A DNA stretch of 13,595 nucleotides from an uncultured Verrucomicrobiota bacterium (GTDB lineage Bacteria; Verrucomicrobiota; Verrucomicrobiae; Opitutales; Opitutaceae): contig CAMLNJ010000023.1 in assembly GCA_946481225.1 (NCBI GenBank), forward strand, positions 1-13,595, in the 5' to 3' direction. The position numbers were made by a program, and so were the translations under genes. Under the pieces are notes generated by a model. The model was not told the DNA's origin, did not search any database, and worked only from the letters and a program-made list of their open reading frames with translations. Below, piece by piece: positions 1-13,595 of this stretch (positions within the stretch are counted from its first letter, which is position 1; every line of letters begins with the position of its first letter).

Positions 1-2808
1 ACCGCCGCCGTCTCCGTCGGCAACGGCGGCGCGGCCAGCTCCGTCACCGTCACCGGCTCAGGCTCCAACTGGACCGGCACCGGCCAGACCGACATCGGCA
101 CCCGCGCCCAAGGCACGCTCAACATCCTCGCCGGCGCCACCGTCAACGGCACCACCAGCACGCTCGGCAACAACACCAATGGCCAGGGTTTCGCCAACGT
201 CAGCGGTGCCGGCAGCCAGTGGATCAACACCGGCAACCTCACCGTCGGCAACTTCGGCCGCGGCACTCTCTCGATCGACTCCGGCGGCGTCGTCCGCAGC
301 GCCGCCGGCACCATCGGCGCCTCCTTGAACGCGAGCGGCGGCAGCTTCGCCACCGTCAGCGGCACCGGCAGCCAGTGGATCATGAGCAGCACCTTCAACG
401 TCGCCTCCTCCGGCAACGGCAGCCTGACCGTCAACAACGGCGGCAGCGTCAGCAGCACCGGCGGCGCCACCATCGGCGCCAGCACCACCCACACCACCGC
501 CTCCGTCACCGTCAGCGGCACCGGCAGCACTTGGAGCACCGGCGCCGGCCTCGTCGTCGGCGGCATCGGCATCGGCAACCTCGCCGTCGACTCCGGCGGC
601 GTCGTCTCCGCCGCCACCACCGCGGTCATCGGCAACAACTCCAACGGCAACGGCGCCGTCACCATCACCGGCGCCGGCAGCACCGTGACCGGCACCCGCG
701 CATTCATCATCGGCAACAACGGCCAGGGCGTCGTCACCCTCGCCGACGGCGGCGTCGCCAAATCCGGCGCCACCGGCTCGGGCACCCTCTCGATCGCCAA
801 CGGCGCGAGCAGCGTCGGCACGCTCAACATCGGCGCGGCCGCCGGCAGCCCCGCCGCCGCGGGCGGCATCGTCTTCGCCGGCACGATCACCAAGGGCGCC
901 GGCACCGGCACCCTCCAGCTCAACACCACCGGCACCGGCGCCTCGCCGTATTACCTTTCCAAGGACGGCACCTCCACAGGCGGCAACGTCAGCGTCACCG
1001 GCGCCCTGACGGTCACCAACACCGCCGGCTACAACGTCCTCACCGGCACCACCAGCTACACCGGCACGACGACCATTAACAGCGGCAGCACCCTCCAGTT
1101 CGGCAACGGCGCCTCCGGCTCCGGCGGCTCGGGAGGCAACATCGTCAACAACGGCGCGCTCGTCTTCAACCCCGGCGCCTCCCCGGTCAACGGCACCGGC
1201 GTCATCTCCGGGACCGGCGGCCTCACCAAGAACGGCACCGGCACGATAAACCTGACCGGCACCAACACCTACACCGGCGTCACCACCATCAACGACGGTG
1301 TGCTCGGGGCCGCCGTCCTCGGCGACGGCGGCACGGCCAGCAGCATCGGCCAGACGTCCAGCGCCGCGAGCAACCTGATCCTCAACGGCGGCATCCTCCG
1401 CTACACCGGCACCGGCGGCAGCACCGACCGCCAGGTCACCGTGACCACCGCCGGCGGCGGGCTCGAGGCTTCGGGCAGCGGCGCCTTCACCTACACCGGC
1501 GCCCTCACCTTTGCCGGCACCGACACCGCCCGCACCTTCAGCGTCGGCGGCACCGGCACGGGCACGCTCACCGCCACCCTCGCCAACAACGGCTCAGGCG
1601 TCACCAGCCTCACCAAAACCGGCAGCGGCAGCTTCACCCTCGACGCCGCCAACACCTACACCGGCACCACCACGATCAGCGCGGGCAACCTGGTCATTTC
1701 CGCCGACAACAACCTCGGCCCCGCCCCCGCCTCCCCGACCGCGGGCCACCTCTCCCTCGGCGGCGGCCGGCTCCTCGCCAGCACCTCGCTCACGCTCTCG
1801 TCCAACCGCGGCATCACGCTCACCGGCGGCACCAGCGGCCTCTCCGCCGCCGCCGGCGCCACGCTCACCTACGGAGGCGCCATCGCCGGCGCGGGCAACC
1901 TCGCCTACGGCTCCGCCGGCACCGGCACGGTGCTCCTGCTCGGCACCGACACCCACACCGGCACCACCCAGGTCAGCGGCGGCGGCACCCTCCGCACCGG
2001 CGCCGTCAACGCGCTCTCCGCCTCCTCCGCCCTCACCCTGGCCAACACCGCCGGCACCCTCCTCGACCTCGACGGTCGCGACCAGACCGTCGCCTCCCTC
2101 GCCGGCGGCGGCGCCTCGGGCGGCAACATCGCGCTCGGCTCCGCCACGCTCACCACCGGCGCCAACAACACCAGCACCAGCTACGCCGGCATCCTCTCCG
2201 GCACCGGCGGCCTGACCAAGACGGGCACCGGCGTCTTCACCCTCACCGGCGCCAACACCTACGACGGCGCGACGACCATCGGCGCCGGAACCCTCCGCGT
2301 GAACGGCAGCCTCGGCAACACCGCCGTCGACATCGCGGCCGGCGCCACGCTCGACGGCACGGGCACCATCGGCGGGGCCACCAGCGTCGCGGGCCTGCTC
2401 AACCCCGGCGTGACGATCGGCACGATCACCTTCGGCTCCGACCTCGCGCTCCTTGGCACCAGCACCACCACGTTCGCCGTCAACAGCACCTCCAGCTTCG
2501 ACCGCGTGGTCGTCGGCGGCGAATGGACTGCGGGCGGCACCCTCTCCCTCGCCTTCGGCGGCGCCTTCGATCCCGTCCTCGGCGATAGTTTCGACCTCTT
2601 CGACTTCTCGACCGCGGGCGCCGGCTCCTTCGCGAGCCTCGAGCTTCCGACGCTCGCGGACGGGTTGGTCTGGAACACCGGCGCCCTATACACGACGGGC
2701 ACCCTGAGCGTCGCCTCGGCCATTCCCGAACCCGCGAGCGCCGCCAGCCTCCTCGGCCTCGCCGCCCTCGCCCTCGGCGCCGGTCGCCGTCGCCGCAGAA
2801 CCGAATAG
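1..2808 (+). CDS. Beta-strand-repeat surface protein with PEP-CTERM tail (5' end outside window)
   Basis: The frame is open from base 1, so the start lies upstream; 935 residues are visible. The first ~240 residues hold five repeats of about 52 residues with the core VSGxGSxW; the Trp codons are at 70, 220, 376 and 532, and the fifth copy has Val at 685. I associate this repeat with the T5SS/PEP-CTERM-associated family. From about base 1033 to 2310 follow autotransporter-associated beta-strand repeats (GGLTKxGTGxxxLTGxNTYxGxTTI). The C-terminus has the usual LYTTGTLSV lead-in, then IPEP (PEP at 2725-2733), a hydrophobic stretch and an Arg cluster, which is the PEP-CTERM sorting signal handled by exosortase. 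There is no autotransporter beta-barrel, so export is probably Sec plus exosortase sorting to the envelope or extracellular matrix. The fibrous beta-helix fold is inferred. Ligand and function are unknown. Stop TAG at 2806-2808. Confidence 0.9.
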   Translation, partial: TAAVSVGNGGAASSVTVTGSGSNWTGTGQTDIGTRAQGTLNILAGATVNGTTSTLGNNTNGQGFANVSGAGSQWINTGNLTVGNFGRGTLSIDSGGVVRSAAGTIGASLNASGGSFATVSGTGSQWIMSSTFNVASSGNGSLTVNNGGSVSSTGGATIGASTTHTTASVTVSGTGSTWSTGAGLVVGGIGIGNLAVDSGGVVSAATTAVIGNNSNGNGAVTITGAGSTVTGTRAFIIGNNGQGVVTLADGGVAKSGATGSGTLSIANGASSVGTLNIGAAAGSPAAAGGIVFAGTITKGAGTGTLQLNTTGTGASPYYLSKDGTSTGGNVSVTGALTVTNTAGYNVLTGTTSYTGTTTINSGSTLQFGNGASGSGGSGGNIVNNGALVFNPGASPVNGTGVISGTGGLTKNGTGTINLTGTNTYTGVTTINDGVLGAAVLGDGGTASSIGQTSSAASNLILNGGILRYTGTGGSTDRQVTVTTAGGGLEASGSGAFTYTGALTFAGTDTARTFSVGGTGTGTLTATLANNGSGVTSLTKTGSGSFTLDAANTYTGTTTISAGNLVISADNNLGPAPASPTAGHLSLGGGRLLASTSLTLSSNRGITLTGGTSGLSAAAGATLTYGGAIAGAGNLAYGSAGTGTVLLLGTDTHTGTTQVSGGGTLRTGAVNALSASSALTLANTAGTLLDLDGRDQTVASLAGGGASGGNIALGSATLTTGANNTSTSYAGILSGTGGLTKTGTGVFTLTGANTYDGATTIGAGTLRVNGSLGNTAVDIAAGATLDGTGTIGGATSVAGLLNPGVTIGTITFGSDLALLGTSTTTFAVNSTSSFDRVVVGGEWTAGGTLSLAFGGAFDPVLGDSFDLFDFSTAGAGSFASLELPTLADGLVWNTGALYTTGTLSVASAIPEPASAASLLGLAALALGAGRRRRRTE
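46..840 (+). repeat. Five ~156-bp tandem repeats (T5SS/PEP-CTERM-associated type)
   Basis: The repeats are in-frame inside the surface-protein gene. Spacing between the conserved positions is 50, 52, 52 and 51 codons. Each unit reads roughly VSGxGSxW, then a strand with xxVG, then GxLxIxxGGxV, then ATIGxxxx. The units differ in sequence, so they are old rather than recently amplified. The last unit has lost the Trp and grades into Gly/Ala-rich sequence. Confidence 0.75.
1033..2310 (+). repeat. Autotransporter-associated beta-strand repeats
   Basis: At least five copies of the SGTGGLTKTGTGxxTLTGANTYxGxTTIxxGTL pattern are recognisable, near 1033-1110, 1192-1305, 1576-1701, 1879-2010 and 2191-2310. 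Spacing is irregular, with 100-250 bases of divergent strand-rich sequence between copies. The pattern corresponds to the passenger-associated repeat family (TIGR02601/PF12951 as I recall it) and predicts a long beta-helix. Confidence 0.8.
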
Positions 2809-2817
2809 GCGCGAAGC

Positions 2818-2845
2818 GTGGCACAGGCATTCCTGCCTATGTCAC
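2818..2845. repeat. REP-like hairpin downstream of the PEP-CTERM gene
   Basis: A 12-base arm, GTGGCACAGGCA (2818-2829), faces TGCCTATGTCAC (2834-2845) across a TTCC loop. Eleven of twelve positions pair, one of them G-U. No T-run follows on either strand, so it is not a classical intrinsic terminator. It could still stabilise the 3' end of the upstream mRNA. I recall similar ACAGGCA-TTCC-TGCCTGT palindromes dispersed in Verrucomicrobia genomes; this is memory, not a search. Confidence 0.6.
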
Positions 2846-2859
2846 CCCCAGGGCCCGCC

Positions 2860-3153
2860 GCCACGGCTTGCGTCGGCACATCCCCATGGAGGAGCTTTCC
2901 GCCCTCCATGGGTTCCCCTCGTCGTCTTGGGTTCGCGCTCATTCTCGCCTCCACCGCATTCTCGTTCGCGTCCGCCGCGGATAAAGAGCTCCCGCCCCCG
3001 GAAGCCACGGAGCAGTGGTCGCCCGAACCGCCGATAGTAAAAGCGCCTGCCGACGGCGTGCCCTCGGACCCTGTCGTGTTGTTCGACGGAAAGAATCTCG
3101 ACGCTTGGGAGTCGACCAAGACCGCCGGCGCGCCCGCGCCGTGGAAGGTCGAG
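2860..3153 (+). repeat. Direct repeat copy A (5' part of DUF1080 gene)
   Basis: This segment matches 4997-5289 with one small indel in the leader. Within the coding part (2908-3153 against 5044-5289) 240 of 246 bases agree by my count. Of the six differences, three are silent and three change a residue (A/T, K/R, P/A). Similarity stops abruptly after GTCGAG, at the first base of the palindrome at 3154. Confidence 0.9.
2883..2912 (+). promoter_or_regulatory. Start-codon hairpin of the truncated DUF1080 copy
   Basis: CCCATGGAGG (2883-2892) and CCTCCATGGG (2903-2912) form a perfect 10-bp stem around a 10-base loop. The 3' arm includes the ATG at 2908, and the GGAGG in the 5' arm is the only Shine-Dalgarno-like sequence for it, so the stem would hide both. 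In the intact copy only a GGAGG/CCTCC 5-bp stem (5025-5029 with 5039-5043) remains. Confidence 0.45.
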
Positions 3154-3267
3154 AGCGGAACGGCAGCGCCGTTTCGCCGCCGACTCGACGAAAGCGCTCC
3201 GCGCTTCCGCTACGTGAGAGAAAGACACACGGACAACCGGGCACCGATTCAATCACCCACCGGGTAA
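2908..3267 (+). pseudogene. Truncated secreted DUF1080 protein (partial duplicate)
   Basis: The first 82 codons are a near-copy of the intact gene at 5044-5817. They include the signal peptide (MGSPRRLGFALILASTAFSF) and the opening motif LFDGKNLDAWE of the 3-keto-disaccharide hydrolase domain. After 3153 the frame runs for 37 unrelated codons through a palindrome to TAA at 3265-3267, giving a 119-residue product without most of the fold. The frame can be extended upstream to GTG at 2818, but that would add a non-signal leader running through two hairpins, so ATG 2908 is preferred by comparison with the intact copy. It is most likely a non-functional remnant, although the exported N-terminus could still be made. 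Confidence 0.8.
3154..3211. repeat. 58-bp imperfect palindrome at the duplication breakpoint
   Basis: The ends AGCGGAA (3154-3160) and TTCCGCT (3205-3211) pair, followed inwards by AGCGC with GCGCT and TTTCG with CGAAA, separated by small bulges. This gives about 17 paired positions in a long bulged hairpin. It begins on the base where the DUF1080 copy stops. It resembles a REP/MITE-like intergenic element; the family is unproven. From 3212 to 3332 I see no gene and no clear signal apart from one arm of a short inverted repeat (3262-3272). Confidence 0.6.
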
Positions 3268-3332
3268 GCGTGGCCCAACTGCCGTTTCCCGGATAAGACC
3301 AAACCCGGAGTCATCCCCTCGGCTCGACCCGG

Positions 3333-3860
3333 TCAAAACGGCCGCGCGGGCAGTTGGGGATTGAGCACCTTGCGGGCGCTTTCGCCACCGCACACAGGCA
3401 GGCCGGTCGGATCCAACAAGCCGGCCTGAACCAGAACCCCGGCTTGGTCCCAATAGATGTGCTCGTGAGAAATCTTCCCTTCTTTAAACCCAACGATGAC
3501 GGCCACCGCCATTTCGATTCTTCTGCCGGTCGGCTGAACCCCTGGTAATAGCCAGTCGATCGGCGTGGTATGGGTAAAACTGATCACCAGTTCTTCCACC
3601 ACTTGATCGAGACCGACGGTGCGGGAGATGGTGATGATATTAACGTCGGGCGGGAAAAATTTTCCCACCAGATGGTCACGATAGAACTGACGCACGCCCT
3701 CGCGTCCCACTCCGCCCGTCATCACCGGCACATGGTTGAGGTGAGGGCAATCCGTCATAGTGGCCATCGTGGTGTCGAGGTCGCCGCGCAGCTCAGCATC
3801 AACGTGTTGCTGGAACAACTCGACCATCGCCTGTTGGGCTACCGATAATATTTGTGCCAT
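3333..3860 (-). CDS. SnoaL/NTF2-like protein, cytoplasmic
   Basis: A 175-residue protein of the SnoaL-like ester-cyclase branch of the NTF2 superfamily. It shows the opening helix with the conserved acidic stretch (LFQQHVDAELRGDLDTTMATM, about residues 15-35), the EGVRQFYRDHL block (54-64), strands carrying VEELVISFTHT (88-98), and the late FKEGKISHEHIYWDQAGVL block (125-143). No signal peptide is present, so it should be cytosolic. The family forms cone-shaped alpha+beta barrels with a pocket for small organic substrates; the reaction here cannot be told. ATG at 3858-3860; no convincing Shine-Dalgarno. It lies 58 bases downstream of the other SnoaL-like gene on the same strand, so the two probably form an operon. 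The block looks lower in GC than its surroundings (31 of 60 in 3601-3660). Confidence 0.85.
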   Translation of the reverse strand: MAQILSVAQQAMVELFQQHVDAELRGDLDTTMATMTDCPHLNHVPVMTGGVGREGVRQFYRDHLVGKFFPPDVNIITISRTVGLDQVVEELVISFTHTTPIDWLLPGVQPTGRRIEMAVAVIVGFKEGKISHEHIYWDQAGVLVQAGLLDPTGLPVCGGESARKVLNPQLPARPF

Positions 3861-3918
3861 AAGAGAAGTCCAAAATCTCCGGCCATTGAAGACAGCGCCT
3901 AAGGGGCGATAAGTGATA

Positions 3919-4458
3919 TTATTTCGCCATCCGGATGGCGGCTTCGAGTTGCGGTGAAAGGTCCGTATGATGGTGGACCATTTTCCATTGGCCGTTTATC
4001 AACCGAAAGATGTTCGTCGCCCGATGACTGACCCGCACCGGCTTGCCGTCCGTGCTCATGTTTTCGCCCTCCTCGACGCAGACCGTATAGCCCATGTCGC
4101 CGGCAACTTGGACAATCAGATCTTTGTAGCCGACGCGCCCGCCGATCTTCATCGCGGCCTCTTTCTTAAACTCTTCGCCCACCTCTTTCCAGCCCGTCAA
4201 CCGACCGCCGAAGGGTCCCATGTCCGTAACCTCGTCTTGATGCGCCCAAATCGCGTTCATGGGGGCGAGATCACCGGTGAACATGGCGTTGAGCGCGGCG
4301 TAGAATTGATCGTTGGCCGCACGAAGTCCTTTTTCCGCTTCCGTAGTTTGTTCACCCGCGCTCCGGGTGGACGATTTTTCTTGTTGGGCGAAACTTGAAT
4401 TGACCGCCAGAAGGGCCGCAAAAATCAGCAGCCAGCGAATGAAGACATTGCTTTTCAT
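3919..4458 (-). CDS. Secreted SnoaL-like (NTF2-fold) protein
   Basis: A 179-residue protein with a clear signal peptide (residues 1-24, ending SSFA before QQ), so the mature protein should be periplasmic. The mature part is a SnoaL_3-type domain: the helix AEKGLRAANDQFYAALNAMF (41-60), the DEVTDMGPFGGRLTGWKEV segment (75-93), and the terminal strands FRLINGQWKMVHHHTDLSP (151-169), whose GxWKxVHxHxS-like pattern is diagnostic. The substrate is unknown; proteins of this type are often annotated only as ketosteroid-isomerase homologues. Start ATG at 4456-4458 with AAGGGA (complement of 4469-4474) 10 bases upstream. It is the first gene of the probable two-gene operon with 3333-3860. Stop TAA at 3919-3921. 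Confidence 0.85.
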   Translation of the reverse strand: MKSNVFIRWLLIFAALLAVNSSFAQQEKSSTRSAGEQTTEAEKGLRAANDQFYAALNAMFTGDLAPMNAIWAHQDEVTDMGPFGGRLTGWKEVGEEFKKEAAMKIGGRVGYKDLIVQVAGDMGYTVCVEEGENMSTDGKPVRVSHRATNIFRLINGQWKMVHHHTDLSPQLEAAIRMAK

Positions 4459-4689
4459 AAATCAAAAGTCCCTTTGGACATTGGGGTTACTGTTGCCGCT
4501 ACACTTGGAAAAAGACGTGTGCTCGATAAGCAGGCAACCCCTTATTTGAAAACCATGCTCCTCCTCGCGGGTGCACCGGCGGCCCACGAAGAAGAGGCCG
4601 GAAGCAGGGCGGGGCGGAATGGCACCAAATAAAAAAGGGGGCCGGCAAATGACGATCAACTCGTGCCTCTTATAAACACGCTTACCCAA
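4459..4689. other. Low-GC intergenic region upstream of the SnoaL pair
   Basis: This stretch of 231 bases has no gene I can support; the block 4441-4500 is only about 42% GC. It should hold the promoter of the minus-strand SnoaL operon, but I find no convincing -35/-10 pair. CACGCTTACCC at 4677-4687 is the exact reverse complement of 3262-3272, so an 11-bp inverted repeat brackets the SnoaL pair. Confidence 0.4.
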
Positions 4690-4971
4690 TCACTTGCCCG
4701 CCCGGCCAATCGTTTCAACTGCGGTGTATAGGGTTAGATTGATCGTGGTCGTGCCGGTGGCGAGGCTGGCACCGGAAATTTTCTGGGTGCCCGTGCCGGT
4801 CTTGGTGATGTCGAAGCGGCTGTTTTCGTTGTTCGCTCCGGTGGTGAAGGCGTTGCCGCCGAGGGTGCCGGTGAAGTTATAGGTGTCGGCAATGGTGCCG
4901 CCGGTCCAGTTTGCAGTATTGGACCAATTAAATGCGCCACCGACAAAGCTGCTGATGGCGCTGCCCCACGC
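4690..4971 (-). pseudogene. Fragment of a beta-strand-repeat surface protein
   Basis: Read on the minus strand, this encodes SSFVGGAFNWSNTANWTGG, then DITKTGTGTQKISGASLATG and TTTIN, then an unrelated tail to TGA at 4690-4692. The NWSNTANWTGG and ITKTGTGTxxxSGA patterns are typical of the start of autotransporter-associated beta-strand-repeat proteins. There is no start codon or signal peptide at the 5' side: the frame runs into antisense of the DUF1080 copy. After TTTIN (bases 4738-4740) the repeat pattern is lost. It is therefore a remnant cut on both sides. It is related in type to the gene at 1-2808 but in opposite orientation. Confidence 0.65.
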
Positions 4972-4996
4972 GCGAGGGCCGGTGGCTCTCCCGCGC

Positions 4997-5289
4997 GCCA
5001 CGGCTTGCGTCGGCGCATGATATCGGAGGATTTTCCGCCCTCCATGGGTTCCCCTCGTCGTCTTGGGTTCGCGCTCATTCTCGCCTCCACCGCATTCTCG
5101 TTCGCGTCCACCGCGGATAAAGAGCTCCCGCCTCCGGAAGCCACGGAGCAGTGGTCGCCCGAGCCGCCGATAGTAAGAGCGCCTGCCGACGGCGTGCCCT
5201 CGGACGCTGTCGTGTTGTTCGACGGAAAGAATCTCGACGCGTGGGAGTCGACCAAGACCGCCGGCGCGCCCGCGCCGTGGAAGGTCGAG
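4997..5289 (+). repeat. Direct repeat copy B (leader and 5' part of intact DUF1080 gene)
   Basis: Partner of 2860-3153. The leaders agree in GCCACGGCTTGCGTCGGC and again in TTTCCGCCCTCC before the ATG, but differ between them. The start codons of the two copies are 2136 bases apart. Homologous recombination between the copies would delete the SnoaL pair and the surface-protein fragment and leave one intact DUF1080 gene. Confidence 0.9.
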
Positions 5290-5817
5290 GACGGCGCCAT
5301 GACCATCATGCCGAGAAGCGGCGGCATTCGCACGAAGCGGAGTTTTGGCGACCTGCAATTGCATGTGGAGTTTCGCACGCCGGCGGAGATCAAAGGGAGC
5401 GGTCAGGACCGAGGAAACAGCGGCGTTTTTCTGATGGGGCGTTACGAGGTGCAGGTGCTCGATTCCCATGACAACAAGACCTACGCCAACGGCCAGGCCG
5501 CGGCGGTTTACAAGCAGCGCCCGCCGCTCGTGAACGCGTCGAGCCCGCCCGGCGAGTGGCAGACCTACGACATCGTTTGGATCGCGCCGCGCTTCGGCTC
5601 CGCCGGCGAGCTGCTGGCGCCCGCCCGCGTCACCGTTTTTCACAACGGCGTGCTCGTGCAGCACGACGTCGAGCTCAAAGGCCCGACCACCTATCGCGGC
5701 ATCCCCGCTTACAAGCCCCACGCCGACAAGCTGCCGATCGAATTGCAGGACCACAACGAGCCTGTCTCGTATCGCAACCTCTGGGTCCGCGAGCTGGCGT
5801 TTCCAAGTCCGCGCTAG
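5044..5817 (+). CDS. Secreted 3-keto-disaccharide hydrolase (DUF1080) protein
   Basis: A 257-residue protein. Residues 1-22 form a signal peptide. Residues about 56-250 are a DUF1080 (3-keto-disaccharide hydrolase, PF06439) domain with a concanavalin/LamG-like beta-sandwich. Hallmarks are LFDGKNLDAWE (58-68), LHVEFRTP (106-113), RGNSGVFLMGRYEVQVLDS (123-141) and LQDHNEPVSYRNLWVREL (234-251). Members act outside the cytoplasm on oxidised disaccharides or other glycans; the substrate here is unknown. The frame could begin at TTG 5005 or ATG 5017, but ATG 5044 puts the signal peptide at the N-terminus and lies 13 bases after GGAGGA (5025-5030). It is the intact member of the duplicated pair and converges on the minus-strand operon, with 51 bases between stop codons. 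Confidence 0.9.
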   Translation: MGSPRRLGFALILASTAFSFASTADKELPPPEATEQWSPEPPIVRAPADGVPSDAVVLFDGKNLDAWESTKTAGAPAPWKVEDGAMTIMPRSGGIRTKRSFGDLQLHVEFRTPAEIKGSGQDRGNSGVFLMGRYEVQVLDSHDNKTYANGQAAAVYKQRPPLVNASSPPGEWQTYDIVWIAPRFGSAGELLAPARVTVFHNGVLVQHDVELKGPTTYRGIPAYKPHADKLPIELQDHNEPVSYRNLWVRELAFPSPR

Positions 5818-5868
5818 CCGCCTCGAGCCCGGAGATTCCGACGCGACGACGGGGCCGGCTCCTTCAAT

Positions 5869-8673
5869 TCAACGGCTCGTGACCGGGGAAATCGTGCCGC
5901 CGTCGATGAAGCGGATCGAACGCCGGACGGGCAGCACTCTGACAAACACCTCGCGCGTCTGCCCCGGCCCGATCTCGAGATCGGTCTCCGGAGTCTCGAT
6001 CAGGTGATGAGGCGGAAGGTTGTTTTTATGGACCCGAAGCGTCCATTTGCCGGGTCGTAGATTATCGAAGGAGACCGCGCCGTCTGAATCGGTGAGTTGC
6101 CGCAGCACTTCCCGGCCGTTGGTGAGCTCCACCAGACCCGCTGAAAAACCGCCAAGGGCCTTGTATTCCTTTTCGGCGCCGGCTCCACGATCACCCGGCC
6201 CGAGGCCGCCGCGGGCGTCGCCGAAGAGGACGATTTTGCCGCGGACGCTCGCGGCATCCACCACGCCGACCGAGAGCTCCCTCGCCTCGTCCTTCTCGAC
6301 CTCGACGGCAAGAGGCACGGGATCGAGCGTGACCCGACCCGGGCCAAGGGAGCTTTGCTCGACGTTCACCTGATAGGTGCCGGGGCGGAGCGAGGGAAAC
6401 ACGAAACGGCCCTGGCGGTCCGTGACGGCGGTGATGCCGTTGGCGGTGACGATCACCCGGGAAAGCGGCTGCGAGACGCCGCCGACGCGTTCAAAGATTT
6501 GCCCGCGCAACACCCCGCCGCCTTTTTTCTTCGAGACCGGCAGTCCAAAGGGAATCATATAGCTGACACTCACCGAGGTGAGCGCCTCGCTCGAGCCCAG
6601 GTCGTTCTGCCAACGGGTCCGAAGGGACGCCACGTGCCGGTTCGGCATCGTGTAACTGATCGCGCCCGAGGCCGTGTCCTGCACGCGCGCGGTGCGGGAA
6701 TCGTATTGGTTACGTGTGTAGTCCAAGTCGACGTCGACGCGGGGTCCCAGCGTCCAGTGCGCCGACACTCCCAGGGTTTGCGAACGCTCGGTCGGGTCCA
6801 CGTTGCTGGAAGACGATCCGACCGACCCGTGCACGGAGTAGGATTGCCCGGTGGTCGGCCGGTAGGAAACGAAGGTGCTGAGGCGCGCGACGGTTTCATT
6901 CTCGTCGCCCTCGCCCGAAACGTTTTTCCCGATGACGCCGAATTCCGCAAAACTCTGCACGCTGAACTTGTCCCGGCTGTGCCCGACGCCTAGGCGGGCC
7001 GATTTCTCCAGGCTGTCCCGCGAGGTCGTTCGCCCGTCGGCATGGCGTTCGATATGCTGGTATTCAAGCGACAGATCGGTGCGGTCCGAGACGCGGAACA
7101 GCAGTCCGGGCCGATAAGAGGTCTGGCGGCTGGCGTAAACCGCCAGCGGCGAAGCCCGGTCGGCATACGAGTTGGCGTAGGCGTCGCGCGCCGCCTGGTT
7201 GAAGGACGCCTTGCCGCGCAGAGGCCCGTGAATGGGGAAAGTCACCGCGGCCTGCGTGCTCTCGGTCGCATGGTAATAGCCGAAGAACTCGTTCCCCGCC
7301 TTGATTCGCTCAAGCGAGTAGGTGACGTCTTCGAACAGCCGCCCGCGGGCCTCCGCGCGGTGGGCCTGCGACTCGGGGCCGGACCCGGCCGAGCTCGCTC
7401 CATATTCCAGATCGAGATCGAGCCGCTCCCCAAAGTCGAACCGGGGCCGAAGGCTGACGAGATCGACCGGGCCGACCGACTCGGGAAGAGAGGCAAGCCC
7501 CGGCTCGCTCTTATGAAGCGCGCTCGCCTGGACCGAAAAAGCGGGGGTGTATTGGTGCGTCACATACGCGCCCGCGGTCTGGAACTCCCGCGTGCGCCCG
7601 ACCGTTTCCATGAAGAACGCGCCCGCACTCGTCGGCCCGGGATGAAAATCCACCGCGGCGCCGCGCCCGTAGTTGAAGCGCTGCGTCAGCGGCGACAGGG
7701 AATAGTTCCGGTCCCCGACGTGGAGATCGAGCTCGGGGCCGTGGTAGCTGACGCGGTATTCGTCCCGGAGCCCGAACATGCTTTGGCGCTCGAGCGACGG
7801 GCCGCGAAACAGGAAATCGAGGCGCTGTTTCCGCTCTTCGTCGACGAAGCCGTCGCCGGAAAACTCGCTCTGTGCGCCCGCGCGTCCGTTTTCCGCCACG
7901 GCGGTGAGGCGCAGTCGGGCCGGCAGCCGCACATACGGGTCGAGATCGCCGGAAACGCGCGGGATGATGTTCACCGCAACCGCGCGGGCGGCGGTGATTT
8001 TCGCGCCGTCGGCGCCGGTCGAAGCGACCGTAAACCGGACGACCTGCGTCAAGGGCTCCCGCTGCTCGACATCGGTTTCGAAATGCGCGCGGAAAACATG
8101 CGAGGCGGCCGGCTCGATCCAGACCTCAGCGGCCTCCAGGCGGACGGGGCGGGCCGGCGAAGCCTGCGCGGATATCGCGACCTTCAGCCGGCTGTTGCCG
8201 CGGTTGATGATCCGGAGCCGGGGCGCGCAGGCTTCTCCGGCGATGACCGTCTCCGTCTGATCCTCGCGAACGAGCTCCAGCTTGCCGACGGGCAGGACGA
8301 CCACCGTCAGGCGGGCCGTCGCCACCGGCGCCCGCGCGGGGGCATCCGAGAGGGTGTAATCGATATCGAAGGAGCCGGACGGCGACGCGGCCGAAACGAC
8401 AAAGGCGACCAGGCGAAGTTCGCGCCGGCCCGGCGCCAGCGGGATCGGCGTGGAGGGCGGCGAGATTCTAAGCCAGCCCGAGGGCAGACCGAAGCTCTCT
8501 TCGTAGACGGCGTCGGCGTCGCTCGTATTCGAGACGAGGATACTGGCGGTCACGATCTTCCCGGGCGTCACCTCGACGACCCGGGGAGAGGTCAGCCGCG
8601 CATCACCCTCGCCGCCGGCGTGCAGAAGCGAAGCCGCGACAAAAAGAAGCAAAAACCGCGACCACCGCCTCAA
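5869..8673 (-). CDS. Usher-like outer-membrane beta-barrel protein
   Basis: A 934-residue exported protein. Signal peptide about 1-19 to 1-24. Residues ~28-128 and ~130-240 are two Ig-like domains of the NEW3/chaperone-like kind. Residues ~245-710 are alternating amphipathic strands typical of an outer-membrane barrel, with LDLHVGDRNYSLSPLT followed by NYGRGAAVDF (315-343), recalling the GD...FRG segment of fimbrial ushers. The barrel ends in SVSVSYMIPFG (701-710). Two carboxypeptidase-regulatory-like beta-sandwiches follow: VLRGQIF...TDRQGRFVFPSLRPGTYQV (721-769), and ~807-916 containing TDSDGAVSFDNLRPGKWTLRV. A barrel with C-terminal beta-sandwiches encoded after subunit and chaperone-like genes suggests a fibre or secretion pore. 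PapC/FimD similarity is remote, so a generic outer-membrane protein remains possible. The TTG start overlaps the upstream TGA. Confidence 0.75.
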   Translation of the reverse strand: MRRWSRFLLLFVAASLLHAGGEGDARLTSPRVVEVTPGKIVTASILVSNTSDADAVYEESFGLPSGWLRISPPSTPIPLAPGRRELRLVAFVVSAASPSGSFDIDYTLSDAPARAPVATARLTVVVLPVGKLELVREDQTETVIAGEACAPRLRIINRGNSRLKVAISAQASPARPVRLEAAEVWIEPAASHVFRAHFETDVEQREPLTQVVRFTVASTGADGAKITAARAVAVNIIPRVSGDLDPYVRLPARLRLTAVAENGRAGAQSEFSGDGFVDEERKQRLDFLFRGPSLERQSMFGLRDEYRVSYHGPELDLHVGDRNYSLSPLTQRFNYGRGAAVDFHPGPTSAGAFFMETVGRTREFQTAGAYVTHQYTPAFSVQASALHKSEPGLASLPESVGPVDLVSLRPRFDFGERLDLDLEYGASSAGSGPESQAHRAEARGRLFEDVTYSLERIKAGNEFFGYYHATESTQAAVTFPIHGPLRGKASFNQAARDAYANSYADRASPLAVYASRQTSYRPGLLFRVSDRTDLSLEYQHIERHADGRTTSRDSLEKSARLGVGHSRDKFSVQSFAEFGVIGKNVSGEGDENETVARLSTFVSYRPTTGQSYSVHGSVGSSSSNVDPTERSQTLGVSAHWTLGPRVDVDLDYTRNQYDSRTARVQDTASGAISYTMPNRHVASLRTRWQNDLGSSEALTSVSVSYMIPFGLPVSKKKGGGVLRGQIFERVGGVSQPLSRVIVTANGITAVTDRQGRFVFPSLRPGTYQVNVEQSSLGPGRVTLDPVPLAVEVEKDEARELSVGVVDAASVRGKIVLFGDARGGLGPGDRGAGAEKEYKALGGFSAGLVELTNGREVLRQLTDSDGAVSFDNLRPGKWTLRVHKNNLPPHHLIETPETDLEIGPGQTREVFVRVLPVRRSIRFIDGGTISPVTSR

Positions 8674-9476
8674 GGCACGATCTCCAGCGCATACTGGGCG
8701 CCGGTGACGTATTCGCCGCCCGTGTCCATCACGACCATCGCCGTGTATTTTCCGGCCGGCACGTCGGTGAGATCGACTTTGTAGCGCACGGAACAGCCGG
8801 GATAGATGCGCCAGCGGCCGCCTTCGAAACGTCCGAGGGAGACGCCCTGCTCATTGAAGAGCTCGGCCCAGAGTCCCGGGATCTGGGCCCGTTCGCCCGT
8901 GTTGGCGACGTCGAGCCGAAGGACCCGCTTGCCCCCGTCGGAGACGAGGGATTTGTCCTGAACCTTAAGCTCCTCGGTGCCGGTGGAGCCGATCTCGGAG
9001 ACGATCTGAACGGCGAAACGTGTGACGGTTTGGAGACCCATCGAGATCTTGTTCTCGGCACCCTCGACCGCCGGGGGCGGAGTGGCGACCGGCTCGATCA
9101 TGATCATGCTCCAATACGTGCCGACGACGGCCACGTCTTTGGGAACTACGCCCTTGTAGTAGACCGACGCGGTGCCTTGCGGGGGCAGAGTCACGCGGGA
9201 GGGGCTCGCGTTCAACCATGCGGCGTTGGAGCGGGCATGGATCGCGGGCTTCTCGTAGCGGTTGTTGCCATCGGCGGTAAACAGGTAGTCGTTCTGGGCC
9301 ACGCTCATTTCGACGGCGTCGTCACCGGTGTTTTTCAGGAGGATGATACCCTCGAAGGCCTCGCCCGACTGGACGTTGTGGTGCCGGGCGAGGCTGCCGA
9401 TCACGGAGACGCCGCCGAGACACCGGCCGACCAGCGCGAGCATGAGGCAAAGGGAAAGCAACAAGGACGATTTCAT
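8670..9476 (-). CDS. Periplasmic pilus-chaperone-like Ig-domain protein
   Basis: A 268-residue protein with a signal peptide (1-21). The first mature domain (about 22-160) is Ig-like, with GEAFEGIILLKNTGDD, NAAWLNASPSRVTLPPQG (84-101) and VPKDVAVVGTYWSMIMIEP (111-129). The order 'W...P..v.L.P' then 'G.Y...l.i.P' is that of PapD-type and related Ig chaperone domains. The second domain (about 161-268) is another beta-sandwich, with LRLDVANTGE and VPAGKYTAMVVMDTGG. The expected role is to bind and cap exported subunits in the periplasm and deliver them to the pore encoded next. The canonical PapD Arg/Lys anchor pair cannot be identified by eye, so this is a functional analogy. ATG 9474-9476 lies 6 bases after the upstream stop; its stop overlaps the next start. 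Confidence 0.75.
   Translation of the reverse strand: MKSSLLLSLCLMLALVGRCLGGVSVIGSLARHHNVQSGEAFEGIILLKNTGDDAVEMSVAQNDYLFTADGNNRYEKPAIHARSNAAWLNASPSRVTLPPQGTASVYYKGVVPKDVAVVGTYWSMIMIEPVATPPPAVEGAENKISMGLQTVTRFAVQIVSEIGSTGTEELKVQDKSLVSDGGKRVLRLDVANTGERAQIPGLWAELFNEQGVSLGRFEGGRWRIYPGCSVRYKVDLTDVPAGKYTAMVVMDTGGEYVTGAQYALEIVP
8682..8685 (-). promoter_or_regulatory. Shine-Dalgarno deciding the TTG start of the usher-like gene
   Basis: On the minus strand GGAG lies 8 bases before TTG (8671-8673), inside the end of the chaperone-like gene. The start and the preceding stop share bases as TTGA (8670-8673). The frame from this TTG begins directly with a good signal peptide (MRRWSRFLLLFVAASLL), which supports a non-ATG start and translational coupling. 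Confidence 0.65.
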
Positions 9477-9482
9477 AGACGC

Positions 9483-9953
9483 TTATTCGATAAGAAGGGT
9501 GAAAATGACACCGGAGCCGTAGAGGTCGGGAGCCACGGCCTTGGACATGCCCGTCAGCCGATACTGAACCGCGATGTTCGCGCGATCGCCGCTGCCGGAG
9601 AAAAACTCGGCGTCCAAGGTCGAGAGCGCCACGTAGCTGCCGCCGCCGGCCACCGCGCCCGAGCCGGTGCCGTCGGAGGTGCGCCGGACGAAAAGTTCGA
9701 AACGTTCGTGCCAGGCGCCGTCGGAGCGGCGGGCGAAAAGCCGCCAGGAGGCGCCGCCGGTGTTGGAAATGGCGAGCGTGGCGACGCCGGAATCGCTGTC
9801 ATGCTGGCTGATCAGGTCGCTGCCCGCCCCGGCGATGAGATCGGACGCGCCGATGGTTTTGATCCAGTTTCCGCTGGATGAAACGTCGGCGCTCCACGTT
9901 GCCGCGGGGGCAAGCGCCAGGAAGAGGAGACGGTGTAGAACCGTGGCTTTCAC
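9483..9953 (-). CDS. Small secreted beta protein, probable minor subunit or adhesin
   Basis: A 156-residue protein with a signal peptide (1-22, ending ATWSA). The mature part is cysteine-free and strand-rich: ATLAISNTGGASWRLFARRSDG (58-79), ERFELFVRRTSDGTG (83-97), YVALSTLDAEFFSGSGDRANIAVQYRLTG (106-134), and the terminal YGSGVIFTLLIE. The late block, 'SGSGDR..I.VQYRL.G' followed by a final alternating strand ending at the last residue, resembles fimbrial-subunit-like Ig folds such as the spore-coat-U group. I do not recognise a named family. The GTG start (9951-9953) is chosen because it begins the signal peptide; no Shine-Dalgarno is visible. It sits between the major-subunit-like gene and the chaperone-like gene, which suggests a minor subunit, tip or adaptor. 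The function is inferred. Confidence 0.7.
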   Translation of the reverse strand: MKATVLHRLLFLALAPAATWSADVSSSGNWIKTIGASDLIAGAGSDLISQHDSDSGVATLAISNTGGASWRLFARRSDGAWHERFELFVRRTSDGTGSGAVAGGGSYVALSTLDAEFFSGSGDRANIAVQYRLTGMSKAVAPDLYGSGVIFTLLIE

Positions 9954-9961
9954 CGAAGAAA

Positions 9962-9993
9962 AAGCGGGTGCCGGCCACGCCAGGCACCCGCTT
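9962..9993 (-). terminator. Intrinsic terminator/attenuator inside the operon
   Basis: On the minus strand AAGCGGGTGCC (9983-9993) pairs perfectly over 11 bp with GGCACCCGCTT (9962-9972) around a 10-base loop, and five T follow (9959-9963, overlapping the stem foot by two). It starts 32 bases after the stop codon of the first gene and ends just before the GTG of the second. It should end most transcripts after the first gene and let some read into the other three. Confidence 0.8.
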
Positions 9994-10025
9994 CGATCCC
10001 ACCAAGAAAGCTTGCGAATGAAAAC

Positions 10026-10520
10026 TTAGGCGCCGGCCGTGATGGTCAGGGTGACGGTCCGGGTATCGGAGGCCTGGACGCCCGCGGCCGAGGTGGCGGA
10101 AAGGCCGTAAGCGATGGTCTTGCCGCTTTCGTTCAGCGTGCTGATGCCGGTGACGACATCCTGCGCGACCGCGGTAAGCGCCACCGCCCCCGCGCTCGTG
10201 GCGCCGGTCGGGGCGGCGAGATTGACGGTCAAGGTCACGCCGGAAGGCATCGCCGCATCGAGCTCGGCGGTGATCTTCCGTCCGGTTTCGTTGGTGGTGA
10301 CGGCGTAGGTGGTGCTGCTGTTGGAAACGGCGGTCGGGGCCGAGCCGGCCGTGGCGGCGGAAACGGTCATGGCGCCGGGATTGCCGCTAACAGAGATTTC
10401 GTTAATAGCGCTGACCGAGAAAGTGACGGTTTGCGTCGTGGTATCGGCGGCGAAAGCCGAAGCGGCGGTGACAAGGGCGGCCACAAGAGACGCACGGAGA
10501 CGGAGGGTGGAGCTGGTCAT
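10026..10520 (-). CDS. Small secreted beta protein, probable major fibre subunit
   Basis: A 164-residue protein with a signal peptide (1-24, cleavage after AFA). The mature 140 residues are rich in Thr, Ala, Ser and Val, contain no Cys, Trp or Phe-rich core, and alternate strand by strand: TQTVTFSVSAINEISVSGNP (29-48), TTYAVTTNE, KITAELD, VTLTVNLAAPTGATSAG (95-111), TIAYGLSATSAAG, RTVTLTIT (154-161). I recall unnamed secreted proteins with the same TVTFxVxAINEISVSGNPG opening, but no defined function. As first gene, followed directly by a terminator, it should be the most abundant product, as expected of a pilin or fibre subunit handled by the chaperone-like and usher-like proteins downstream. 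The absence of Cys rules out the disulphide of classical type-1/P pilins. ATG 10518-10520; no Shine-Dalgarno. Confidence 0.75.
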   Translation of the reverse strand: MTSSTLRLRASLVAALVTAASAFAADTTTQTVTFSVSAINEISVSGNPGAMTVSAATAGSAPTAVSNSSTTYAVTTNETGRKITAELDAAMPSGVTLTVNLAAPTGATSAGAVALTAVAQDVVTGISTLNESGKTIAYGLSATSAAGVQASDTRTVTLTITAGA

Positions 10521-10570
10521 GGGACGATATGGGGTTGGGTTGATGTTTTTGTGAGGTCGCGAACGAGAAG

Positions 10571-10608
10571 CGCTAGCGATGTATTTACATTACCAAACCC
10601 GCGGGCGG
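10571..10608 (-). promoter_or_regulatory. Candidate promoter/operator region of the four-gene operon
   Basis: Upstream of the first operon gene the minus strand holds a weak pair: TTCAAG (just above 10608), a 17-base spacer, and TAATGT (10587-10592). The -10-like box overlaps the palindrome ATGTATTTACAT (10579-10590), and a second palindrome CGCTAGCG lies at 10571-10578. A dimeric regulator could bind here. Matches to consensus are poor, so this is tentative. Confidence 0.25.
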
Positions 10609-10696
10609 CCTTGAACCGGCGAGACACGCATTCGCGGGTGCCCTCTTGTCCTACAAAACGCGGCCGAACGACGCTCGCACACCTGTTCCGCCGGGA

Positions 10697-11332
10697 TCAC
10701 TTTTCCAACTGGTGCTGAAGCGCGTAGCGAATGATGCCGGCGGTGTTCCGCAGCCCGAGCTTTTCCAACACGCGCGCACGATAGGTGCTCACGGTTTTGA
10801 CGTTGAGGCAGAGGAGCCCGGCGATCTCGGACACGGTGCGACCTCGGCCAAGCAGGCGCAGCACCTCGAATTCACGCGACGAAAGCGACGCATGGGCTGT
10901 CGAACTTGCCGGCTTCAGATGGCTGTCGAGCAAGCGTGACGCGAGATCCACGGAGATGTATTTTTTTCCCGAGCAAACTCGGCCGACCGCGGCGGAGAAC
11001 TCCGCCAGCGAACAGGTTTTGGGAAGAAAGCCCATCGCGCCCGCCTTTAGCGCGCGCTCGCCGAACTCCTCCTCGATCCTCCCGCTCACGACCAAGATGG
11101 GGACCTCGGGCGCCACGGCTCGAAAGTCGCCGAGCAGATCGAGGCCGCTGCGGTCGGGTAGATCGATATCCAACAGGATCAAACGCCAAGAGCCGTCCGA
11201 GACGAGCTTCATGGCTTCTTCCGCGCTGGCCGCCTCGGTCACCTCGGCTTGAGAATGCAGTCGCAGCAGTAGCTGCTTGAATACATCCCGGACCATGGGG
11301 TGGTCGTCGATAACTAGGAAACGCTGTGCCAT
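10697..11332 (-). CDS. NarL/FixJ-family response regulator
   Basis: A 211-residue two-domain regulator. The receiver domain (about 4-120) has the acidic pair D9/D10, the phospho-acceptor D55 in LILLDIDLP, S83 in ILVVSGR and K105 in GFLPKTCS. The LuxR-type helix-turn-helix (about 148-209) reads LSSREFEVLRLLGRGRTVSE, then IAGLLCLNVKTVSTYRARVL, with the usual KTV recognition segment. The frame is open 134 codons further upstream, but that extension is Arg/Gly-rich and not receiver-like; ATG 11330-11332 gives the canonical MAQRFLVIDDHPMVRD start. No histidine kinase is in the window, so the signal is unknown. It ends 176 bases upstream of the fibre operon on the same strand, so control of that operon is plausible but unproven. 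Confidence 0.9.
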   Translation of the reverse strand: MAQRFLVIDDHPMVRDVFKQLLLRLHSQAEVTEAASAEEAMKLVSDGSWRLILLDIDLPDRSGLDLLGDFRAVAPEVPILVVSGRIEEEFGERALKAGAMGFLPKTCSLAEFSAAVGRVCSGKKYISVDLASRLLDSHLKPASSTAHASLSSREFEVLRLLGRGRTVSEIAGLLCLNVKTVSTYRARVLEKLGLRNTAGIIRYALQHQLEK

Positions 11333-11705
11333 GGTCGGGACGGGATTCCCACCAAGGAACGGATGCTCCTTCCCTTGGGTGTCAACGAGCCCCCCCGGGC
11401 GGGATCCGCCGTCATACGCAGGGGGAGAGACCCTTAGTCGATGGCCCGCCCGCGAACCTCTCCTAGTCACCCACCGCATTTCACCTGATTTCGGCGCAAA
11501 ATCCGCGCATCCTCCGAGGGCAGCCGCCCGCTGATCGACATTGCGGAGCCTGAGCGACAAGCCGGCACCGGCCCGTCTTTTTGACCATCGTGGCCGGAGT
11601 CGACCCTTTTTCCGCTTTCCCCCGCCACGCGGCTCGCTTGTGCTTCGCGGCAGCCTCCCGGTCGCACGCGCGCCCACCGCGCCCCCGCCGCCGCGAGTCC
11701 TCTTG
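11333..11705. other. Divergent intergenic region between response regulator and RNase D
   Basis: These 373 bases contain no gene I can support; frames crossing it are Arg/Pro/Gly-rich GC shadows. It must contain the minus-strand promoter of the response regulator and the plus-strand promoter of the RNase D gene. A perfect TTGACA on the minus strand (complement of 11380-11385, 48 bases before the regulator ATG) has no acceptable -10 partner at 16-18 bases. Confidence 0.4.
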
Positions 11706-13175
11706 ATGCTCAAGCGCCTGATTTCCTTTTTCACGGGATCGACTTCCGCCCCCTCTCCTTCCGCGGATTCCTCCTCTTCCCACGCCGCTGATCGCGACGT
11801 TTCTTCCGGGTCGCGTCCCCGCTCCCGCCGTCGTCGCCGCGGCCCTCGGCCCGATCAAACGGAACTCCCCCTCGACGAAGGCTCCGCCTCGCCCGCCGAA
11901 GGCCCCGCGCCGCGGCATCGCACGCCCGCGCCTTCTCTCGACACGCCGCCCCCCGCCCCCCGCCCCTCGCCTCCGCCGCGCGCCCGGATGGCGCCGCCCG
12001 CGGCCGCGCCCGTCCGCACCGCCTCCGCCACCACCGGCGAAAAACCCCCGCATTTCGTGCTCATCGACACCCCCGCCGGCCTTCCTCCGCTCTACGCCGC
12101 CCTCGACCGCGTCGACGAGGTCGCGATGGATACCGAGGCGGACAACATGTTCCACTACCACACCCGCGTGTGCCTCCTCCAGTTCCTCGTGGACGGCGAG
12201 GTCTACCTCGTGGATCTGATGACGCCGCTCCCGCTGGAGCCCCTCTGGGAGCGCCTCGCGCAGAAGCACCTGATCATGCACGGGAGCGATTTCGACATCC
12301 GCCTCCTGCACGAGCTCTGCCGCTTCCGCCCGCGCAGCCTCTTCGACACGATGCTCGCGGCCCAGTTGCTCAACCGCCCGCGCGTGGGCCTCGGCGCCCT
12401 CCTTGAGCAGCACTTCGGGATCCAGTTGGACAAATCCGGGCAGAAGGCCAACTGGTCCAAACGCCCCCTCACCCCCAAGCTCCTCGACTACGCCGCGCTC
12501 GACGTCTGGCACCTGCCCGCGCTGCGCGACCTCCTCACCCGCGAGCTCGCGGCGCTGGACCGCCTCGACTGGCTCGACCAGCAATGCCGCCGCCAGATCG
12601 AGAGCGGTCTCACCGGTTTCCCGCGCGACGAGGAGACCGCCTGGCGCGTCGGCCCCGCGGATCGCCTCCGCGGCCTCGGCCTCGCGGTGCTCCACTCCGT
12701 CTGGCACTGGCGCGAAAAATGGGCCGAGGAGCTCGACACCCCGCCCTTCAAGGTCTGCAACAACGATCTCTTGTTCCAGATGGCTCAGGCCGCCGAGCAG
12801 GGCGACGCGATCGAGTCGATCCTCGCCACCACCAATCTGGGCAAACGCCAGCCCCGGCTCGCCCCTTCGCTCGCCGCCGCGCTGCGCGAAGGCTTTTCGC
12901 GCGATCCCTCCACTTTGCCGCGGCGTCCGCGCGCCGAGCGCATCCACCTGTCGCAGGCGGAAATCGAGCGTCAGGAACGCATCAAGTCCCATCGCGACCG
13001 GATGGCCGCCAAGCTCAATCTCGACCCGACCCTCATCGCCCCGCGCAGCACGCTCGTGACCCTCTGCCGGGAGCCGCAGCGCCTCGACGAGATTCTTCTG
13101 CCTTGGCAGGCCGATCTTTTGCGCGACTCGGCCGATTTCGCCTCCGCCCCGGTCCAGGCCGTTCCTCAGCCGTGA
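11706..13175 (+). CDS. rnd: Ribonuclease D with long N-terminal extension
   Basis: A 489-residue 3'-5' exoribonuclease that trims tRNA and other stable-RNA 3' ends. The DEDDy exonuclease signature is complete: D142 and E144 in VAMDTEADN (Exo I), D197 in HGSDFDIRLL (Exo II), and Y262 with D266 in LLDYAALDVWHL (Exo III). An HRDC domain follows (about 317-395; ADRLRGLGLAVLHSVWHWRE with DTPPFKVCNNDLL). The N-terminal ~115 residues are low complexity, Pro/Ser/Ala-rich with a basic RSRRRRRGPR patch (39-48), longer than the ~375-residue E. coli enzyme needs. ATG 11706 (MLKRLISFF) is preferred; TTG 11541 would add a shadow-like Pro/Arg leader, and ATG 11988 would remove the tail. It is monocistronic here as far as visible. 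Confidence 0.9.
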   Translation: MLKRLISFFTGSTSAPSPSADSSSSHAADRDVSSGSRPRSRRRRRGPRPDQTELPLDEGSASPAEGPAPRHRTPAPSLDTPPPAPRPSPPPRARMAPPAAAPVRTASATTGEKPPHFVLIDTPAGLPPLYAALDRVDEVAMDTEADNMFHYHTRVCLLQFLVDGEVYLVDLMTPLPLEPLWERLAQKHLIMHGSDFDIRLLHELCRFRPRSLFDTMLAAQLLNRPRVGLGALLEQHFGIQLDKSGQKANWSKRPLTPKLLDYAALDVWHLPALRDLLTRELAALDRLDWLDQQCRRQIESGLTGFPRDEETAWRVGPADRLRGLGLAVLHSVWHWREKWAEELDTPPFKVCNNDLLFQMAQAAEQGDAIESILATTNLGKRQPRLAPSLAAALREGFSRDPSTLPRRPRAERIHLSQAEIERQERIKSHRDRMAAKLNLDPTLIAPRSTLVTLCREPQRLDEILLPWQADLLRDSADFASAPVQAVPQP

Positions 13176-13261
13176 CGGCTCAGCCCTGACACCAGCCAAT
13201 CTCCGCGGACGCGAGGCTTGCCAAGCCGACGCCGCGCGACCATTTCTCGCACCTCCCCCCT

Positions 13262-13519
13262 ATGAACAAGAAGGCCCTTTTGCCCCTCGCCCTCATCACC
13301 GCGACCGCCGTCTTCACGGGTTGCGCCCACCAAAAAACCCACACCGGCAGTCACACCCGGGTGCTCGGCGGTCTGGTGGAAGTTGAAAAGGGCGCCTATC
13401 AGCCCGCACCCCGCACCAGCATCGACGGCAACGTCAACGAGCTCGTCGGTAACGCCGGCGATCCGTCAGGCACCCAAGTGAAGGTTCTCTGGGGCCTCTT
13501 TACGGCCAACGATTACTGA
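13262..13519 (+). CDS. Small lipoprotein of unknown function
   Basis: An 85-residue protein with a lipoprotein signal: MNKK, a hydrophobic core, and lipobox VFTG-C21 with the modified Cys at 21. The mature 65 residues are hydrophilic, with TRVLGGLVEVEKGAYQPA (32-49), a GNVNELVGNAGDPSGTQ segment (56-72) and a final VLWGLFTANDY. I do not recognise a named family. The second residue after the lipid Cys is His rather than Asp, which by the E. coli rule would favour the outer membrane. The pyrimidine-rich sequence ACCTCCCCCCT directly before ATG contains no Shine-Dalgarno, so initiation must rely on something else. It lies 86 bases after the RNase D stop with no terminator between, so co-transcription is possible. 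Stop TGA 13517-13519. Confidence 0.8.
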   Translation: MNKKALLPLALITATAVFTGCAHQKTHTGSHTRVLGGLVEVEKGAYQPAPRTSIDGNVNELVGNAGDPSGTQVKVLWGLFTANDY

Positions 13520-13546
13520 GTCGGCGGCCTTCGGCCTTTCCCTTTT

Positions 13547-13578
13547 GCCGCCCGGTCGCTTGCGACAGGCGGCTTTTT
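13547..13578 (+). terminator. Intrinsic terminator after the small lipoprotein gene
   Basis: GCCGCC (13547-13552) pairs with GGCGGC (13568-13573). Inside, GTCGC (13555-13559) pairs with GCGAC (13562-13566), separated by a small internal loop and closed by TT. Five T follow at 13574-13578. It lies 27 bases after the stop and ends the lipoprotein transcript, and possibly the RNase D transcript. Confidence 0.85.
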
Positions 13579-13595
13579 CATGGCCGGACGAAGCG

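Follow-up and report, generated by a model that had tools for sequence, protein, structure and literature searches.

A probable donor-strand fibre operon with a WxLIP-related chaperone in an Opitutaceae genome

What do four adjacent genes of an uncultured Opitutaceae bacterium (a family of the Verrucomicrobiota) build on the cell surface? The genes lie on the minus strand of contig CAMLNJ010000023.1 (assembly GCA_946481225.1), within positions 1 to 13,595, a stretch of 13,595 nucleotides called the window throughout. An earlier note, made from the sequence alone, described them as a candidate divergent chaperone-usher-like fibre system. That observation is confirmed and its interpretation partly supported: the operon probably serves a diderm bacterium as a donor-strand fibre system, in which, we infer, a chaperone lends a strand to each subunit, this strand is exchanged for one of the next subunit, and the fibre so formed is exported through an outer-membrane barrel. 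What the note missed is the kinship of the chaperone-like protein with the WxL-interacting proteins (WxLIPs) of Gram-positive bacteria; this link and the plug-less barrel are new.

The four consecutive genes were located as open reading frames (ORFs) of the lengths given in Table 1, and each product begins with the claimed signal-peptide-like stretch (judged by eye). Overlaps had also been reported: the chaperone stop and the barrel start do overlap, by 4 bp, but this is the sole true overlap, with a 6-bp gap from B to the chaperone gene and a 72-bp gap from A to B. The small proteins A and B are cysteine-free; the chaperone-like protein has Cys 10, 19 and 228, and the barrel protein has one Cys. 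The disulphide of classical pilins is indeed absent, which alone makes no distinction, since CFA/I-type pilins are not known to have it either. Neither Pfam nor NCBIfam gives a match at E<=1 between any of the four proteins and a PapD, usher or pilin family, in line with the note's view that they are not recognisable PapD/PapC/Fim members. A, B and the chaperone-like protein have nothing above Pfam cut-offs, and an NCBIfam scan of the window proteins gave nothing above cut-off. The domains of the operon that do exceed Pfam cut-offs (CarboxypepD_reg, SdrD_B, SpaA and fn3_3) are confined to the barrel protein, towards its C-terminus.

Table 1. The operon and its associated features (positions in the window; aa, amino acids)
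Feature	Positions	Strand	Size or form	Assignment
Subunit A gene	10026..10520	minus	164 aa	probable major fibre subunit
Subunit B gene	9483..9953	minus	156 aa, GTG start	probable minor subunit, distant relative of A
Chaperone-like protein gene	8670..9476	minus	268 aa	relative of WxL-interacting proteins (WxLIP)
Barrel protein gene	5869..8673	minus	934 aa, TTG start	outer-membrane barrel, candidate usher
Stem-loop	9963..9992	minus	12-bp stem with one mismatch, T-rich tail	just 3' of gene A
LuxR-type response regulator gene	10697..11332	minus	receiver and GerE domains	upstream of the operon; candidate regulator

Relatives of the chaperone-like protein

Comparisons were made with hand-chosen alignments of 52 chaperone-like proteins (A1), 31 barrel proteins (A2) and 43 subunit A proteins (A3). 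Against the PDB sequences, the chaperone profile finds one significant match, EfmWxLIP1 (9i1y, E 8.4e-6), spanning profile positions 86-259. In profile-profile comparison with nine WxLIPs from lactobacilli, Lactococcus and Enterococcus mundtii it reaches 92.3% over 230 columns (reversed profile 0.2%, best of 40 shuffles 1.4%), and four distant chaperones reach 95.4% over 239 columns. In a search of 1473 ORFs, seven of the nine WxLIPs rank directly after the family's own kin (E 2.6e-9 to 0.028), and the first chaperone of Escherichia coli K-12, YadV, follows two ranks below the WxLIPs at E 0.4; these E values relate to that small set. Against 11 K-12 chaperones the profile gives 78% over 213 columns in local mode and 93% in global mode, with none of 40 shuffles as good; the global mode was applied to the K-12 chaperones only. 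Compared directly, WxLIPs and K-12 chaperones score 3.4%. Searches in the reverse direction give only weak matches to the chaperones, starting at E 0.0044 with the WxLIP profile and at E 0.015 with the K-12 chaperone profile. Judged by these profiles, the closest outside relatives of the protein are Gram-positive WxLIPs, with the E. coli pilus chaperones second and their 78% suggestive only. The WxLIP kinship supports the proposed identity of the 268-aa product as a two-domain, tandem immunoglobulin (Ig) chaperone-like protein.

PapD (PF00345) is not among the 22 Pfam families matched by the 52 members at E<=1, and the window chaperone matches neither part of the WxLIP tandem DUF916 + DUF3324 (PF06030, PF11797) at the same threshold. 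Weak matches to these two models occur in nine and two of the 52 members, with best E values of 0.0026 and 0.028. An NCBIfam scan of 18 family members yielded nothing useful, and PF06030 matched in none of 17 genomes scanned. The same model (WxLIP_PGBD) lies above cut-off in two of 14 control genomes, Thermotoga maritima, whose cells carry an outer sheath, and Lactococcus lactis. A TcfC match in one of the 52 chaperones (E 0.06) was set aside as weak noise. Two broad profiles of close and distant relatives, A5 and A6, returned nothing relevant from the PDB sequences (best E 0.093 and 0.21); A6 found neither a WxLIP nor a PapD-like chaperone there. LysM has no Pfam match in the window chaperone, and by eye the protein ends in QYALEIVP after the second domain, with no C-terminal transmembrane helix of the WxLIP type.

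Pro60 of EcpB and Arg89 are given as marker residues in the passages available from Pakharukova et al. (PMC4654587). The first is the D1 proline that is invariant among chaperones of the pathway; the second, in strand F1, is conserved in alternative and archaic systems, where it anchors the C-terminus of the subunit. P92 of the window protein, conserved in 81% of the family, aligns with EcpB Pro60 in a weak local alignment. The Arg89 position, also weakly aligned, is held by S123, a Ser in 98% of members. Segment 144-158, which follows a variable loop, alternates: residues are hydrophobic at I144 (80%), M146 (100%) and L148 (100%) and seldom so between them, at S145 (27%), G147 (12%) and Q149 (6%), until the alternation breaks at T150 (8%). 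This pattern makes residues ~144-158 a candidate donor strand.

Two surveyed loci contain single frames (L116:7121-8830 and L117:10595-12310) in which, by eye, chaperone/WxLIP-like domains are combined with LysM-like stretches, and in L117 with CarboxypepD_reg-like stretches as well. These may be peptidoglycan-bound versions of the chaperone.

The subunits, the barrel and their gene order

The predicted fold of subunit A is the Ig-like fold of chaperone-usher pilins. Its best matches, at the top of the fold lists, are CFA/I-class ('alternative') pilins, with FimA and CsuA/B at lower ranks. In the model, an N-terminal extension (residues ~25-40) is left unpaired, and its hydrophobic/polar alternation (V32-F34-V36-A38) suggests a donor-strand-like segment; the subunit role given to A in the earlier note is consistent with this model. 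The profiles of A and B align at 93.0% over 117 columns, and none of 40 column shuffles is as good. Searches of the PDB sequences with the A profile (A3) and a B profile (A4) gave nothing significant. Among 120 listed of the 1135 members of the subunit A family, none has a Pfam domain, and those that are named are all hypothetical proteins. The Pfam WxL model matches neither A nor B nor any of nine distant subunits, and is absent from 25 listed of the 27 families matched by the 43 members of the A alignment. At the profile level, the subunits reach 36, 46 and 72% against WxL (none of 40 shuffles as good for each), and in the reverse direction the WxL profile finds subunits only weakly, at E 0.47 and above.

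The barrel protein is predicted to contain two sandwiches (~23-240), a barrel of ~26 strands (247-715) and two CarboxypepD_reg/SpaA-like sandwiches (~720-915), in agreement with the C-terminal beta-sandwiches described before. No plug domain is visible in its predicted secondary structure, and none of 30 relatives has an insertion of at least 25 aa inside the barrel. Foldseek ranks 1-10 for the model are all FimD/PapC, at low scores; on realignment MtrB comes first, with TonB-receptor and other barrels level with or above the ushers. Among the best 50 rows, only those of the ushers 9fy9_D, 9bog_D and 7lhh_C run on beyond the barrel through the C-terminal sandwiches, as far as model residue 913-916. 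The window barrel has 11 Pfam matches at E<=1, none of them to the usher family PF00577; this family is also absent from 25 listed of the 62 Pfam families matched by the 31 barrel members, and hhalign against seven K-12 ushers gives at most 15%. As modelled, the barrel belongs to no known family and is not specifically usher-like on realignment. A PapD_N match in four of the 31 barrel proteins (best E 0.11) was set aside as weak noise. P0133, a 772-aa relative whose entry includes a response-regulator receiver domain (PF00072), is perhaps a fused or misassembled gene.

Gene order was surveyed in 27 sources: the window, six loci from metagenome-assembled genomes (MAGs; two Opitutaceae, one Desulfobacteraceae, two Deltaproteobacteria and one unassigned bacterium) and twenty further genome stretches. 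Some of these also supplied profile rows, and their matches exist by construction. A close chaperone (E<=3.4e-67) is present in 20 of the 27 sources, window included, and in all 20 the next step downstream, at most 255 bp away and in the same orientation, is a barrel gene. Subunit A is present in 19; L071 is without it because its contig ends, and the same genome carries A at the edge of another contig. B stands between A and the chaperone in 14 of the 20 (in L113 only at E 7e-4) and after the barrel in L106, L109 and L112; it was not found in L006, L071 or L111, the last of which shares one genome with L110. Four loci (L003, L004, L005 and L103) have subunit A in duplicate. The order A, B, chaperone-like protein, barrel, or a close variant of it, recurs in Opitutaceae, Desulfobacteraceae-type and other genomes, the nearest of the MAG loci being the two from Opitutaceae, so the conservation on which the note's reading depended holds. 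At E<=0.001 the set has 127 homologues for the 268-aa query, at least 36 for the 934-aa query (scored only against the 7988 candidates sharing most words) and 1135 for A, each count including the query's own cluster. Given these homologues and the recurring order, the operon is not a chance arrangement.

The system is uncommon, and its distribution is patchy. Strong chaperone matches were defined by E<1e-60, a line set after the values were seen. In the 297 genomes of group G003 the chaperone profile has at least 13 matches, at least four of them strong, and among the matches listed subunit A occurs in exactly the four strong-chaperone genomes. The 82 genomes of group G006 gave 15 chaperone matches, eight of them strong and all eight with A; a ninth genome matches A weakly (E 3.8e-4) but not the chaperone. 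Over both groups (379 genomes) a strong chaperone is found in at least 12, with A in 12 of 12, and the 16 genomes with weaker chaperones have no A among the matches listed. Group G001 (288 genomes), searched with the chaperone only, has at least four matches (E 6e-118, 2.7e-71, 7.7e-66 and 1e-8); genomes counted as negative in G001 and G003 may hold a missed match. When 17 chaperone genomes were tested (G005 left out), the barrel was found in 17 and A in 16, at only E 2.6e-4 in G094; in the 17th genome, G149, a search of the ORFs does give A (E 5.8e-10). In the distant loci L118, L119 and L120, several small proteins with an end motif like GTYxGTVTYTLSAP lie beside a chaperone relative. L118 and L119 also encode a barrel-type protein with SdrD_B, accompanied in L118 by CarboxypepD_reg and OmpA domains; the contig of L120 breaks off in the next gene.

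Fibre assembly and its alternatives

In the proposed mechanism, subunits A (major) and B (minor) would enter the periplasm with their Ig-like folds incomplete. The WxLIP-related chaperone would complete each subunit by lending the strand at residues ~144-158 and would bring the complex to the barrel protein, at its N-terminal sandwiches. There, the N-terminal extension (~25-40) of the incoming subunit would replace the strand lent to the previous one, and the growing fibre would exit via the plug-less barrel. The hairpin after gene A would favour an excess of the major subunit. The operon would work like the chaperone-usher pathway; it is not filed as a member of it because PF00345 and PF00577 are not matched and a plug is not seen.

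To our knowledge, no relation is drawn between chaperone-usher pili and the WxL surface complexes of Gram-positive bacteria, and no description of a link between them was found among the best-ranked papers of an open-licence library. A CFA/I-like subunit, a WxLIP-near chaperone and a barrel of no known family in one operon would connect both surface machineries, making strand donation testable as a shared way to display Ig-like proteins and giving the 1135-protein subunit A family its first functional hypothesis. In the passages available, an AlphaFold2 model has a WxLIP hairpin inserting into WxL and completing its sandwich (Hassan et al., PMC10599100), and the WxL core is described as covered by an N-terminal strand that may change conformation (Hassan and Williamson, PMC9772566). 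The words 'chaperone', 'pilus' and 'fimbri' do not occur in the available text of PMC10599100, and chaperone-usher pili go unmentioned in the WxL literature passages at hand, those of both papers included.

It is possible, if tentative, that the operon is a separate outer-membrane fibre machine, a diderm sister of WxL/WxLIP whose plug-less barrel is not an usher by descent. With the WxL/WxLIP clusters (CscA-CscD, DUF916-DUF3324) it shares a small exported beta-sandwich protein, a tandem-Ig partner related by profile, often in that order, and, in the proposed mechanism, the strand insertion predicted for WxLIP (PMC10599100). Unlike those clusters, it adds an outer-membrane barrel, its chaperone has by eye no membrane helix after the second domain, and the Pfam models for WxLIP and WxL miss its chaperone and subunits. 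If a separate machine were true, donor-strand chaperoning of Ig-like surface subunits would predate the PapD/usher pathway or stand apart from it, and strand donation may also be how WxL proteins assemble.

Rather doubtful is plain membership of the alternative chaperone-usher pathway, class 5, to which CFA/I (CfaA/B/C/E) and ECP (EcpA-E) belong, after divergence so fast that chaperone and usher have passed beyond known profiles. Several points speak for it: a pilin-like fold with an N-terminal donor-like extension, CFA/I-class pilins heading the subunit A lists, the values against the 11 K-12 chaperones, the proline aligned with EcpB Pro60, and the FimD/PapC ranks of the barrel. A small exported subunit, a chaperone and an outer-membrane barrel likewise share one operon in class 5, and as in the window a regulator gene lies upstream in ECP, where the E. 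coli K-12 order is MatA (which we take to be LuxR-type), pilin, chaperone, usher. Usher barrels, however, have 24 strands, not the ~26 predicted here, and no plug is seen in the window barrel, which carries CarboxypepD_reg C-terminal domains. The WxLIPs also outscore PapD-like chaperones in three profile comparisons, and the window chaperone has no PapD Pfam match and a Ser at the Arg89 anchor. No tip adhesin turned up, though no search was aimed at one. CfaA is the CFA/I chaperone in the available part of PMC4133393. To the classical and archaic pili (Fim, Pap, Csu) the operon is linked by the Foldseek ranks of its barrel and by FimA and CsuA/B lower in the subunit lists; it differs from them in having no family-level sequence match, no plug and no Cys in A or B.

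Quite unlikely is a diderm WxL surface complex without a fibre, in which a WxLIP-like protein would hold subunits singly on the surface or peptidoglycan and the barrel would be an outer-membrane anchor or pore. The chaperone-WxLIP relation, the WxL values of the subunit profiles and the LysM-like frames of L116 and L117 speak for it, as does the annotated WxL gene directly before WxLIP in four of nine Gram-positive loci, like the subunit-chaperone order; one of these loci has the order reversed, however. The window chaperone itself lacks both a LysM match and a membrane helix, the subunit fold with its free N-terminal extension matches polymerising pilins, and duplication of subunit A also argues against single display. 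A large porin or MtrB-like conduit beside unrelated beta-sandwich proteins is highly improbable because of the gene context, with a barrel after the chaperone in every close locus, and also in view of the usher-only reach into the C-terminal sandwiches and a Pfam scan of ten window proteins that found no cytochrome family.

Expression signals and neighbouring genes

A 91-nt region containing the stem-loop after gene A has a folding z of -3.13, with none of 200 shuffles as good. T-tailed hairpins occur in nine of 21 gaps after a subunit A gene and in 23 of 600 random windows, a comparison that is indicative only, the gaps being 2-369 bp long and the random windows 100 bp; L002 and L102 have strong hairpins after A without a T-rich tail. 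The hairpin rests on fold score and recurrence because a consensus promoter/terminator scan did not list it (four terminator-like sites, against 5.7 in shuffles). It is possibly a partial terminator or 3'-end stabiliser that would leave A in excess, as could be expected if the first gene encodes a major subunit.

The candidate regulator lies inside ORF 10697-11734, with its likely start, by eye, at ATG 11332. Relatives share 61% identity over 211 aa in L002 and 67% over 133 aa in L001; the other operon loci give only weak receiver matches.

Elsewhere in the window, two direct copies of 263 bp (2896-3158 and 5032-5294), 97% identical, correspond to the 5' portion of a gene for a 3-keto-disaccharide hydrolase (DUF1080-type). 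The second copy is within an intact-looking gene (5005-5817; PF06439, E 8.4e-47) and the first in a short ORF. Positions 1-2808 hold a 935-aa frame, open at the window edge and rich in Gly/Thr/Ser repeats, with a PEP-CTERM-like tail (by eye). On the plus strand, 11541-13175 encodes a Ribonuclease D-like protein with 3'-5' exonuclease and HRDC domains. Two adjacent SnoaL-like proteins are encoded at 3333-3860 and 3919-4458; judged by eye, the second of them begins like a signal peptide.

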